NCBI GenBank assembly: GCA_016218155.1
Contig: JACREQ010000002.1
Coordinates: forward strand, 1 to 64,000
Length of the DNA stretch: 64,000 bases
Direction: 5' to 3'
Source: Bacteroidia bacterium
GTDB taxonomy: Bacteria > Bacteroidota > Bacteroidia > Bacteroidales > GWA2-32-17
Shown here: one piece after another, positions 31,785-57,455 of the stretch
Numbering within the stretch: the first letter of the stretch is position 1
Layout: the number at the start of each line of letters is the position of its first letter
Position numbers and translations under genes: made by a program
The notes under the pieces: generated by a model
Seen by the model: only the letters and a program-made list of their open reading frames with translations
The model's database searches: none
What the model was told of the DNA's origin: nothing

Positions 31785-32714
31785 ATGACTTCATTATATA
31801 ATATAGTAACAATACTTGGACCTACAGCTTCAGGCAAGACCCGCTTTGCTGCCGAATTATGTTGTAAAATTAATGGTGAAATAATAAGTGCTGATTCAAG
31901 ACAGGTATATAAGGGAATGGATATTGGAACAGGCAAAGATATTAAGGATTATGAAGTTGCAAGTATTAAAGTCCCTTATCATATTATTGATATTGTAGAA
32001 ACTGGTTATCAGTACAATGTTTTTGAGTTTCAGCGAGACTTTTTAAAAGCATTTAATAAAATAAAATTAAATTCTAATTTTCCTGTGTTATGTGGAGGAA
32101 CAGGTTTATATATTGATGCAGCTTTAAAAGGGTATAAGTTAATAGATGTTCCAATAAATACTGCTTTAAGGGAAAAATTAGAAAATAAAACTTTGGATGA
32201 ACTTAACCAAATCCTCAAAAAATATAAAAAACTTCATAATGTAAGCGATTCGGATACTGTAAAACGTGCAGTAAGAGCAATTGAAATTGAAGAATATTAT
32301 TTGAGTAATACAAATATAAATAAAGAGTATCCAGAATTAAAAAGTTTGGTTATTGGAATTGACTGTGAAAGAGAGTTGAGAAGAACAAGAATAACCGAAC
32401 GCCTTAACAAAAGGCTAAATGATGGATTAATTGAGGAAGTACAACAATTATTAAATAGAGGAATAACTGCAGATCAGCTTATTTATTATGGTTTGGAGTA
32501 TAAATATATTACCGAATATTTAACCGGAAAATACAATTTTAAAGAATTCTTCTCAAAATTAGAGATTGCAATTCACCAGTTTGCTAAAAGACAAATGACC
32601 TACTTCAGAAGCATGGAAAAAAAGGGGACTAAAATAAACTGGATAAATTGTGAAATACCAAATGAAGAAAAAATTGAAATGGTATTGAATAAACTTAAAA
32701 TTACTAATCAGTAA
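31785..32714 (+). CDS. miaA: tRNA dimethylallyltransferase
   Basis: 309 residues. Adds a dimethylallyl group to A37 of tRNAs reading UNN codons. P-loop GPTASGKTRFA near the start, SADSRQVYKGMDIGTGK, PYHIIDIV, GGTGLYIDA, and the C-terminal YGLEYKYITEYL and FAKRQMTYFR blocks. The last 11 bp overlap the 3' end of the convergent cyclase gene. 97 bp of AT-rich divergent promoter region separates it from the Yip1 gene. Confidence 0.95.
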   Translation: MTSLYNIVTILGPTASGKTRFAAELCCKINGEIISADSRQVYKGMDIGTGKDIKDYEVASIKVPYHIIDIVETGYQYNVFEFQRDFLKAFNKIKLNSNFPVLCGGTGLYIDAALKGYKLIDVPINTALREKLENKTLDELNQILKKYKKLHNVSDSDTVKRAVRAIEIEEYYLSNTNINKEYPELKSLVIGIDCERELRRTRITERLNKRLNDGLIEEVQQLLNRGITADQLIYYGLEYKYITEYLTGKYNFKEFFSKLEIAIHQFAKRQMTYFRSMEKKGTKINWINCEIPNEEKIEMVLNKLKITNQ

Positions 32715-34089
32715 TCTCTTTTTTAAGTCTCTCAATCTGAGTTTGTTTATTTACTTCGCGCAATTTGTTAGCAGTTTCTGTAAAATATTGATGTGGAGTC
32801 AGAAATTTAATTTGTAATTTATTCCAATCGTTAATTGAGCCTATTAAATTTTGTTCGTGAAGTTCTTTATATAGAGTGTTAGAAACAGGAATAAAGTCAC
32901 TTCTACCAAGATAATCAAGATCGGCATCACAAATAATTTTTTGCAATAATGTTTTAGGCTGTGGTGGGAGCTTTGTTGCCATTATTATTTGCTGAATTTC
33001 TACAATTTGTTCGTTCGTATAACCAAATTTTGGAAGTATAGATGCTGCGATTCTGGTTCCTATAAGTTCGTGATCGCGGGTTTGAATAGTTTGTCCGGAG
33101 TCGTGAAATAATGCAGCAGTTTTTAATAACAACATTTCTTCATCCGAAATGCCTTCGCCCTGACCAAGTATTTCGGCTTGAATTCCTACGTCAATAGTGT
33201 GTTTTAAATTATGGTAATGCAAATATTTTGGTAATTCGCGTTCGAGCTTATCTAACATGAATTCTTCCAGATCATCATATTTAATAAGCTGAAATTTAAC
33301 CTGGAATTTTTTATTTGGAACCAAACCTTTCTTGTCAACAGAATATTTGGGTGTAAATCCTTTAACCTGATAAAGGTTAATGTCGCCAACATATTTAACA
33401 GGAATTTTACCAATGTAGCTGCAACGAAAATATTCTGAAATTAATTCACGAGTCATTTCAGAAATAATTATTTTTCCAGGCTCACTAGCAGATTCAATTC
33501 TACTAGCAATATTTACAGTTTCACCTTTTAATTCATATGTTATTTTCTTTTTTCCCTGTTCCGCAGCAATAACCGGTCCTGTATGAATTCCCATAGAAAT
33601 TTCCCAGATTATTTGATTCTCACCAAAAAGCTCTTTTTGAAATTCTTTAAGTTTATCGTTAATTTTAATTGCTGCAAGAACCATTTCTATTGGATTTGTC
33701 CTGTTCTTTTTTGGTATGCCGCCTGCGCACATTAAAGTATCGCCAATAGAGCTTATTTTTTCAATGTTATGGGATGCAATAATTTCATCAAGCATTAAAT
33801 AAAAACTATCCAGTTCATCAATTAGTAGTTCTGCATTTTGTTTTTCGGCTAATTTTGAAAATCCTTTTATATCAGCAAAAAATACAGTTACCATTTTATA
33901 ACGGATACTTTTTTTATCGGCTGATTCAAGGTTAATTTTTGAATTAATTTTTTCTAAACCTTCTCCTAAATTACGATTTTGCTCAATCAGTTCAAGATTA
34001 CGTTTTAATAATTCCCGATTTTCTTTGTTTAAATCAGAAATTATTTTTTCAAGCTCTTGTATTTTAATTGAGTAATCAGATTCCTGCAT
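32704..34089 (-). CDS. Class III nucleotide cyclase fused to an HD-domain phosphohydrolase
   Basis: 461 residues, no signal peptide or membrane segment. Residues 1-60 are coiled coil (ELEKIISDLNKENRELLKRNLELIEQ, split by heptads). A class III adenylate/guanylate cyclase domain follows at about 65-250: metal Asp in VFFADIKGFSKLAEKQ, second Asp in SSIGDTLMCAGG, and LKGETVNIASRIES. From about 285 to 440 lies an HD domain: YHNLKHTIDV, TAALFHDSG and DHELIGTRIAA. A cyclase and a hydrolase in one soluble chain suggest that synthesis and a second phosphohydrolase activity are coupled; whether the HD part cleaves the cyclic nucleotide is unknown. Confidence 0.85.
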   Translation of the reverse strand: MQESDYSIKIQELEKIISDLNKENRELLKRNLELIEQNRNLGEGLEKINSKINLESADKKSIRYKMVTVFFADIKGFSKLAEKQNAELLIDELDSFYLMLDEIIASHNIEKISSIGDTLMCAGGIPKKNRTNPIEMVLAAIKINDKLKEFQKELFGENQIIWEISMGIHTGPVIAAEQGKKKITYELKGETVNIASRIESASEPGKIIISEMTRELISEYFRCSYIGKIPVKYVGDINLYQVKGFTPKYSVDKKGLVPNKKFQVKFQLIKYDDLEEFMLDKLERELPKYLHYHNLKHTIDVGIQAEILGQGEGISDEEMLLLKTAALFHDSGQTIQTRDHELIGTRIAASILPKFGYTNEQIVEIQQIIMATKLPPQPKTLLQKIICDADLDYLGRSDFIPVSNTLYKELHEQNLIGSINDWNKLQIKFLTPHQYFTETANKLREVNKQTQIERLKKEITD

Positions 34090-34240: not shown

Positions 34241-34516
34241 ATGAAAAATATAAATATACTATTTACCATTGCTATAGTAGCAGTGTTATTATCATTGAAT
34301 TCTTGTAAGGAAAAGGTCTACTCAGAAAATTCCGGATTATTAATTTCTTCTGCTGGAAACTCTCAAAAAGGCATTAACTCGTTTGCAAATGTTAATGAAT
34401 ATAGTATGATGAAATTAGTTTTAAATTATGGAACGGTTACACCATATAAAAAAATACTAAGCAATTGGTATGTTACAGAATCCAATAATAGTATTCTAAA
34501 TAATGAAGGTTGTTAA
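34241..34516 (+). CDS. Decayed copy of the following lipoprotein (91 aa)
   Basis: 91 residues. The signal peptide FTIAIVAVLLSLNSC is nearly identical to that of the next gene ([15 protein letters not shown]), with lipobox LNSC. The C-terminal part MKLVLNYGTVTPYKKILSNW aligns with [20 protein letters not shown] of the neighbour, but the central domain of about 60 residues is missing and the end is replaced by NNEGC. It is best read as a tandem duplicate that has suffered an internal deletion and 3' loss. It may still yield a small lipoprotein. Confidence 0.55.
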   Translation: MKNINILFTIAIVAVLLSLNSCKEKVYSENSGLLISSAGNSQKGINSFANVNEYSMMKLVLNYGTVTPYKKILSNWYVTESNNSILNNEGC

Positions 34517-34543: not shown

Positions 34544-34984
34544 ATGAAAAATAAAAAAATAATTTTTACCCTTGCAATAGTAGCAGTGTTATTAGTATTA
34601 AATTCCTGTAAGAAAGAAGATAATTCTGCTAATACTTCTAATTCCAATAATATTAGCAATATTATTCAGCAGGGCAACTGGAAAGTAACATTATATCATG
34701 ATAGTGGAACTGATGAAACTTATTATTTTAACGGTTACCAATTTGTATTTAATTCTTCCGGAATCATTATAGCTTCGGTTAATAGTAATAATACAAATGG
34801 CTCCTGGTCATCTGGAAACGATGATAGTACTCCAAAATTGATTTTAAATTTTGGAGTCAGTTCACCATTAGATAAGCTCAATGATGATTGGCATATTATT
34901 GAACAAACCTCAGTTACCATAAGGCTTCAGGATGTAAGTGGTGGTAATGGAACTACAGATTATCTTACTTTCGAGAAAATATGA
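34544..34984 (+). CDS. Lipocalin-like lipoprotein (146 aa)
   Basis: 146 residues with a signal peptide and lipobox LNSC. After a Ser/Asn-rich linker the mature part has the beta-rich pattern [63 protein letters not shown], typical of lipocalin-like proteins of Bacteroidetes. Function unknown. Its stop overlaps the start of the superoxide dismutase gene by 4 bp, so they are co-translated. A partial paralogue lies directly upstream. Confidence 0.65.
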
Positions 34985-56843: not shown

Positions 56844-57455
56844 TTACATAAGAGTAATTTTATTTCTGCCTAATTGTACAAGATTTTCATTTTCCATTTG
56901 CTTAAGTAGTCTGGAAACAACAACTCTGGCAGTACCCAGCTCATTTGAAAGCTGATCGTGAGTTACAGAAATTGTTTTACTTTTAGCAAGTTCACATTTT
57001 TTCTGAAGCAAGTTAAATAATCTTTCATCCATTTTTTTAAAAGCGACTGCATTTACTACTTCTAAAAGTTCCTCGAAACGTTTATGGTAAAGACGGAAAA
57101 TATAATCAACCCATTCTGGATATTCTTTTATAAGCAAACTAACTTTATCAATAGGAATAAATAAAATTTCTGTTTCTTCCTCTGCAACCACTTTTACTTT
57201 GCTGGTATCATTATGAATTCCTCCAAATATAGACATTATACAGCTTTCGCCGGATTTTATATAGTAAAGTAAAATCTCACGTCCGTCTTCATCAGTTCGC
57301 AAAACCTTAATACTTCCTTTGATAACAATAGGAATAACATTAATATAAGCATTTTCATTTAATATAATATCAGCTTCATGAAAAACCTTAACTGTACCAT
57401 ATGCAGAAAGTTTATCCTGAATTTCAGGTGACGATTTAAATCCCATATTTTCCAT
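56844..57455 (-). CDS. Crp/Fnr-family transcriptional regulator
   Basis: 203 residues. cNMP-binding-like beta-roll (about 20-125; LLYYIKSGESCIMSIFGGI instead of the strict GELG cAMP site) followed by the dimer helix and the winged helix HTH_Crp (ISVTHDQLSNELGTARVVVSRLLKQME). Only two cysteines are seen (SCIMS and KKCELA), so no Fnr-type iron-sulfur cluster; the signal could be a persulfide or a bound small molecule. It is encoded directly upstream of, and in the same direction as, the sulfur operon, with 76 bp between, and is the likely regulator. Confidence 0.9.
   Translation of the reverse strand: MENMGFKSSPEIQDKLSAYGTVKVFHEADIILNENAYINVIPIVIKGSIKVLRTDEDGREILLYYIKSGESCIMSIFGGIHNDTSKVKVVAEEETEILFIPIDKVSLLIKEYPEWVDYIFRLYHKRFEELLEVVNAVAFKKMDERLFNLLQKKCELAKSKTISVTHDQLSNELGTARVVVSRLLKQMENENLVQLGRNKITLM

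Follow-up and report, generated by a model that had tools for sequence, protein, structure and literature searches.

The presence of a nucleotide cyclase and a phosphodiesterase in one chain is already known in plants, where the combined adenylyl cyclase with phosphodiesterase (CAPE) is described from Marchantia and other streptophytes (PMC5159850, PMC8115329). CAPE starts with the phosphodiesterase, continues with membrane segments and ends with the cyclase, in a chain of >1200 amino acids (aa) (PMC8115329). Class I phosphodiesterases carry the motif HX3HX25-35D/E (PMC4222275), and their recognition of purines is ascribed to a conserved Gln, instead of which CAPE has Asn or Thr (PMC8115329). 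Class I enzymes are placed in eukaryotes and class III enzymes (metallophosphoesterases) in bacteria (PMC8115329, PMC4222275). Within the titles and abstract beginnings of the open literature, we found described no bacterial cyclase-HD fusion, no bacterial class I-like HD phosphodiesterase in or beside class III cyclases and no split at the residue numbered 426 below.

The window, a stretch of 64,000 nucleotides from a Bacteroidia bacterium, encodes what may be such a combination. Like CAPE, the protein joins a class III cyclase to what is probably an HD-type class I phosphodiesterase, but the cyclase comes first and the HD domain last, no membrane segment is apparent, the chain has 461 aa and is bacterial, and it stays below the cut-off of the eukaryotic phosphodiesterase model PF00233. 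In our reading, it is a cyclic-nucleotide phosphodiesterase whose partner, a cyclase-type domain, is regulatory or weakly active. With moderate confidence, our best explanation is a soluble cyclic-nucleotide turnover enzyme in which the HD domain would hydrolyze and the cyclase domain would be weak or regulatory.

Gene, neighbors and cyclase domain

The open frame is real. It is read from the minus strand, a point left unspecified in the original prediction, and the plus strand across the same interval has many stops (Table 1). The gene has its own gap upstream and is without a nearby codirectional neighbor, and the convergent miaA-like gene (named by eye from its sequence) is outside the cyclase-HD system. 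A scan of the locus for promoters and terminators gave counts equal to those in shuffled sequence. At 34241-34516 and 34544-34984 there is a tandem pair of small genes, both lipoprotein-like and alike at their starts, the second without a Pfam family.

Table 1. Positions in the window of the fusion gene, its domains and key residues, and the convergent gene
Feature	Coordinates	Strand	Basis or remark
Cyclase-HD fusion gene	32704..34089	minus	461 aa; ATG at 34089, stop 32704-32706
Long N-terminal helix, residues 3-52	33934..34083	minus	AlphaFold model
Class III nucleotide cyclase domain, residues 63-243	33361..33903	minus	PF00211 2.3e-37; VIA Z 23.2 to 3r5g
D73, first metal aspartate (D1)	33871..33873	minus	Lost in 35/109 readable short relatives
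D117, second metal aspartate (D2)	33739..33741	minus	110/110 short forms
HD domain and C-terminal helices, residues 271-461	32707..33279	minus	Class I phosphodiesterase-like predicted fold
H293-H297 (YHNLKHT), first half of class I motif HX3HX25-35D/E	33199..33213	minus	Sequence
H329-D330, HD pair	33100..33105	minus	Sequence
D388-D390 (DAD), metal aspartate of HD site	32920..32928	minus	Sequence
Q426-F429 (QxxF), candidate counterpart of invariant purine-binding Gln and Phe	32803..32814	minus	hhalign, low probability
miaA-like gene	31785..32714	plus	Convergent; 3' ends overlap 11 nt

The class III cyclase and HD domain expected in one chain were borne out by Pfam: Guanylate_cyc (PF00211) matches residues 63 to 243 with 128.8 bits (cut-off, 21.9; E, 2.3e-37) and HD (PF01966) matches residues 295 to 390 with 32.6 bits (cut-off, 22; E, 1e-7), including the H..HD..D pattern. 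The cyclase domain model aligned over 189 residues with CyaB of P. aeruginosa (3r5g; VIA Z, 23.2). Both metal aspartates (D73 and D117) and the HD pair (H329/D330) are where they had been predicted, and the transition-state residues N193 and R197 are present. A coiled coil had also been proposed; the full-length AlphaFold model (pLDDT, 87.5) has one predicted helix (residues 3 to 52), placed ahead of the cyclase domain and not between that domain and the all-helical C-terminal HD domain. It is likely a dimerizing signaling helix.

Substrate pairs of class III cyclases are Lys/Asp for the ATP type and Glu/Cys for the GTP type. The window protein has S113, E186 and K188 where adenylate cyclases have Lys/Asp and W188, and S113/E186, which fits neither pair, points to no particular substrate for its cyclase, although D73, D117, N193 and R197 are present. 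Among 110 short chains of the family, eight have this S/E pair with D1 intact.

The Crp/Fnr regulator of the window (56844-57455), once suggested as a responder to the nucleotide, was rejected in this role: it lies >22 kb away, adjoins an oxidoreductase-rhodanese gene and is the weakest of seven cNMP_binding matches in the genome (4.3e-11). Inspection of the Crp/Fnr protein by eye found no phosphate-binding cassette of the FGEL..R[ST]A kind. Elsewhere in the genome (L192, contig C23), a 620-aa frame has a cNMP_binding domain (2e-17) with a plausible R-containing cassette and, after it, aspartase-like sequence (by eye); from its sequence it appears to be the better candidate responder.

The HD domain and its structural relatives

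A fold search with the full-length model returned cyclases only, and since this one domain fills the list, the HD domain was modeled separately. The resulting model (pLDDT, 94.6) aligned with PDE10A over 185 of 191 residues (VIA Z, 16.9; rmsd, 2.7; identity, 18%) and also matched PDE7A (Z, 16.4) and RhoPDE (Z, 15.9). H293, H297 and D330, the last two with 32 residues between them, conform to the class I motif. The HD half resembles eukaryotic class I phosphodiesterases (PDE10A, PDE7A, PDE9A and RhoPDE) in predicted fold, in HX3H...HD and perhaps in a candidate Q..F pair; it differs in length (~190 versus roughly 300 residues), in the low identity of the structural alignments (17 to 19%) and in lacking a significant family-model match. 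We regard it, as firmly as the overall explanation and no more so, as probably a compact bacterial relative (~190 residues) of those enzymes. This half is better supported than the original prediction had guessed.

Small HD hydrolases match the model comparably well. The uncharacterized 2pq7 ties with PDE10A in VIA (Z, 16.7, over 160 residues) and, with YpgQ bound to ADP, leads by Foldseek E value (1.1e-4 and 2.2e-4, respectively); at the top of the Foldseek ranking stand small HD hydrolases whose function is different or unknown, and PDE5A is fifth (2.7e-3). A sequence profile built from the HD domain (A2) likewise has 2pq7 as its best match in the PDB (3.4e-9). These matches would suit a YpgQ/2pq7-like nucleotide pyrophosphohydrolase (a dNTPase or similar), with the cyclase domain sensing a nucleotide. 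We consider such an enzyme unlikely, as the VIA alignment covers 160 residues for 2pq7 versus 185 for PDE10A and the recurrent pairing with cyclases and Pycsar effectors described below is unexpected for a housekeeping enzyme. Far less probable still is a cyclic-dinucleotide hydrolase of the HD-GYP kind: it would belong to the same HD superfamily, and there is a weak PDB profile match (0.016) to 4mcw, which we take to be an HD-GYP protein, but residues 271 to 461 contain no GYP motif and the linked genes encode mononucleotide cyclases.

Sequence profiles touched PDE9A and PDEB1 weakly (E, 0.01 to 0.02), and a sequence search of the PDB with the C-terminal half alone returned no phosphodiesterase. 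PF00233 gave no row for the window protein at E values up to 1 and passed its threshold in none of 99 genomes. All 75 rows from these genomes were subthreshold; 43 fell on the window HD family, which supplied the top row in 37 of the 60 genomes having any.

A candidate base-binding site emerged from comparison with one approximate PDE4D sequence: local hhalign gave a probability of 27% (E, 6.6e-4) and, at a loose setting, a collinear series of motifs (YHNxxH, HD, ATxMS/ATKLP, CADL/DADL and SQVGF/LQIKF); global hhalign aligned four columns only. Q426 and F429 may thus form the base-binding pair, which we treat as a lead and not as proof. Gln occupies position 426 in all 110 short forms, in 141 of 151 HD domains fused to a cyclase and in 27 of 35 that stand alone.

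Conservation of the two halves

Orthologues with 93% and 84% identity within the genus and ~50 to 70% across the order place the fusion far beyond chance, and it is a member of a widespread Bacteroidota family. When 99 relatives (92 genera) were searched with the window protein, 69 genomes had a match at E ≤ 0.001, a count that includes cyclase-only and HD-only proteins. With the A2 profile (24 sequences), 66 genomes yielded 97 matches better than 1e-18, separated by a score gap from unrelated HD proteins; 67 of these matches lie within open frames of at least 453 residues, and every one read has a cyclase domain. The fusions are of three types: short (~465 aa, including the window protein), long (~1220 to 1285 aa) and a second type of ~500 to 700 aa. 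A long paralogue with Reg_prop and Y_Y_Y parts and a complete cyclase is encoded in the same genome (L040, contig C102). At 27 loci (e.g., L100, L110 and L124) the second type lies ~3 kb from a short fusion, with PorZ-like and RdgB-like genes between them and an aminotransferase-like gene after the second fusion (all three named by eye).

The collection of loci is biased, as the genome scan used the pattern D[AS]DLDY[LM]GR; both D388 and D390 fall within it and are conserved by construction in the scanned loci, and the other HD residues lie outside it. HD match strength and chain length were the criteria that split 137 nonlong fusions into 110 short and 27 second-type chains, so that a dead HD site in the second type is partly a matter of definition. 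In a tree built without the metal-site columns, a branch with support 65 nevertheless had all 27 to one side, and the loci of these chains have a common gene order. Exact repeats account for 8 of the 110 short rows. Clustering at 97% identity left 101 rows; D1 is missing from 32 of the 100 in which it is readable, and the HD site is intact in 101 of 101.

In the short forms it is the HD site that is kept. H293, H297, H329, D330, H340, E341, D388 and D390 are intact in 110 of 110, as are D2 and R197, and N193 is present in 105. Of the 109 chains with a readable D1 (one was unreadable), 35 have lost it, to N in 12, E in 10, Y in 8, S in 3, H in 1 and G in 1; K stands in place of W188 in 106 of 110. 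Conversely, all 27 chains of the second type have the cyclase residues D D K D W N R, and their HD site retains H329 in 1, D330 in 2 and D390 in 0 of 27. Long forms have D1, D2, N and R in 20 of 20, a canonical cyclase in 20 of 20 (one with W188 replaced by Y) and all HD residues in 16 of 20. Among seven further fusions, two have lost D1 and kept the HD metal residues, and four have a damaged HD site and kept D1. No chain among 165 (including one with an unreadable D1) has lost both D1 and the HD site. A quick tree of 158 rows, from which D1, residue 188 and eight HD columns had been left out, requires at least 17 changes in the state of D1 and 2 for HD breakage. RelA/SpoT enzymes, among whose paralogues one half or the other (synthetase or HD hydrolase) is dead, are an analogy only, since their synthetase domain is unrelated and their messenger is different.

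These patterns bear on the proposal that the chain both makes and removes a nucleotide. Removal is supported by fold, motif and genomic association; synthesis by the window chain is uncertain, given S113/E186 and the repeated loss of D1, while the retention of D1 in 74 of 109 short forms means that cyclase activity may well be common among them. A bifunctional chain on the reported pattern of plant CAPE, making and removing one cyclic nucleotide with a switch between these activities, is possible but rather doubtful. D73, D117, N193 and R197 are all present in the window protein and its genus, the long paralogues with canonical cyclases (20 of 20) and mostly intact HD sites (16 of 20) make truly bifunctional chains plausible in the family, and MpCAPE is described as having both activities (PMC8115329), but S113/E186/K188 replace K/D/W here and D1 is missing from 35 of 109 readable short relatives.

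Both catalytic domains are under purifying selection, with dN/dS ratios of ~0.01 to 0.05 in comparisons with unsaturated synonymous sites. In the sole measurable D1-less pair (L009/L011, with Glu at D1), the ratio of 0.024 in the cyclase domain indicates that this domain is used and is not decaying. It could serve a heterodimer in which the short chain brings the phosphodiesterase and, by analogy with mammalian C2, lends N, R and the residues for base binding to a second chain with a complete cyclase; in the window genome, the partner would be the long paralogue on contig C102. The constancy of R197 (110/110) and N193 (105/110) while D1 varies, the selection on the D1-less pair and the complete paralogue at L040 are consistent with this arrangement. 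It is nonetheless improbable: D2, which a C2-like chain would not need, is kept in 110 of 110, and D1 is present in 26 of 26 readable short chains beside a second fusion, the opposite of the simplest forecast. The idea of strict complementarity at one locus, with D1 lost where a second fusion is nearby, was rejected on the same count, as the losses (35 of 83) are all elsewhere.

In the favored explanation, a phosphodiesterase with a weak or regulatory cyclase domain, helix 3-52 would dimerize the protein, and the cyclase domain would bind nucleotide at the dimer interface. There it might cyclize weakly or slowly (in the window genus), regulate the eraser or partner a second, complete cyclase. 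The HD domain would hydrolyze a 3',5'-cyclic nucleotide, probably a purine one, to the 5'-nucleotide, with Q426 and F429 gripping the base.

Association with cyclases and Pycsar effectors

Linkage to cyclases recurs outside the fusions. In 24 genomes picked for holding nonfused HD members, 15 of 35 HD-family genes have a PF00211 domain ≤600 bases upstream on the same strand, against 0.008 expected for all 35 under uniform placement. These 15 comprise 5 fused and 10 separate cases, so that 10 of 30 nonfused HD genes follow a cyclase and the other 20 have none within 600 bases upstream. The partner cyclases bear Reg_prop/Y_Y_Y, TPR, HAMP, receiver or kinase-AAA-GAF parts, and two Reg_prop/Y_Y_Y-cyclase genes run 4 bases into the HD gene.

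Several further contexts were observed. One chain of 1864 aa (L271) consists of protein kinase, AAA, GAF, class III cyclase and HD parts. At four loci (L245, L248, L269 and L270), an HD domain with Gln426 ends a TPR chain of 860 to 880 aa that has a TIR-like start and a TolB-like part (by eye). Universal stress protein (Usp)-like genes, recognized by an N-terminal motif, adjoin or lie near the standalone HD gene at 9 of 17 loci (L036, L041 to L045 and L047 to L049), and Pfam Usp was confirmed in all three tested. Some Usp proteins bind cAMP.

The HD family is also joined to PycTM, a Pycsar effector. Seven of nine PycTM matches in the 99 genomes are fused to it. Such fusions are chains of ~390 to 470 aa and include L183 to L186, L188 and L189, with further loci, L210 to L232, from the phylum. 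The HD-PycTM gene at L188 starts two bases past a PycC-like cyclase gene, and at L184 such a gene is followed by DUF2652, predicted to be a cyclase family (PMC4886424). The window genome itself has no match to PycTM, the sole Pycsar effector sought, and the window protein matches the PycC profile at 2.1e-16 versus 2.3e-37 for PF00211.

Residue 426 separates the two settings. Gln, present in the window protein, occurs in 0 of 34 HD-PycTM chains, which have N (23), T (5), S (4), W (1) or I (1), i.e., N, T or S in 32 of 34; the 30 with intact metal residues have N (23), T (4) or S (3). Asn or Thr at this position is by itself no proof of a pyrimidine choice, since CAPE also has Asn or Thr (PMC8115329). 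Among the second-type fusions, whose HD metal site is broken, 17 of 27 retain Q426, so that product binding could persist in some of these dead erasers.

A broader reading, which is plausible but which we advance tentatively, is that Bacteroidota have their own, bacterial branch of the class I phosphodiesterase fold, serving as a dedicated off-switch of class III cyclase signaling. A purine form with Gln426 would be fused to or lie beside cyclases, and a second form with Asn, Thr or Ser426, fused to Pycsar effectors, would clear cCMP or cUMP. Labor would be split among the fused chains, which would combine a dying cyclase with a live eraser or a live cyclase with a dead eraser, perhaps a product sensor.

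If true, the link between a class I-like enzyme of bacteria and class III cyclases would shift the boundary that assigns class I to eukaryotes and offer a route to the missing off-step of cyclic-nucleotide signaling in Bacteroidota. Such an enzyme would also be a candidate for clearing Pycsar signals, with residue 426 bearing on the choice of base. The retention of the eraser half in the short relatives points to an unrecognized means of switching off a signal in these bacteria.
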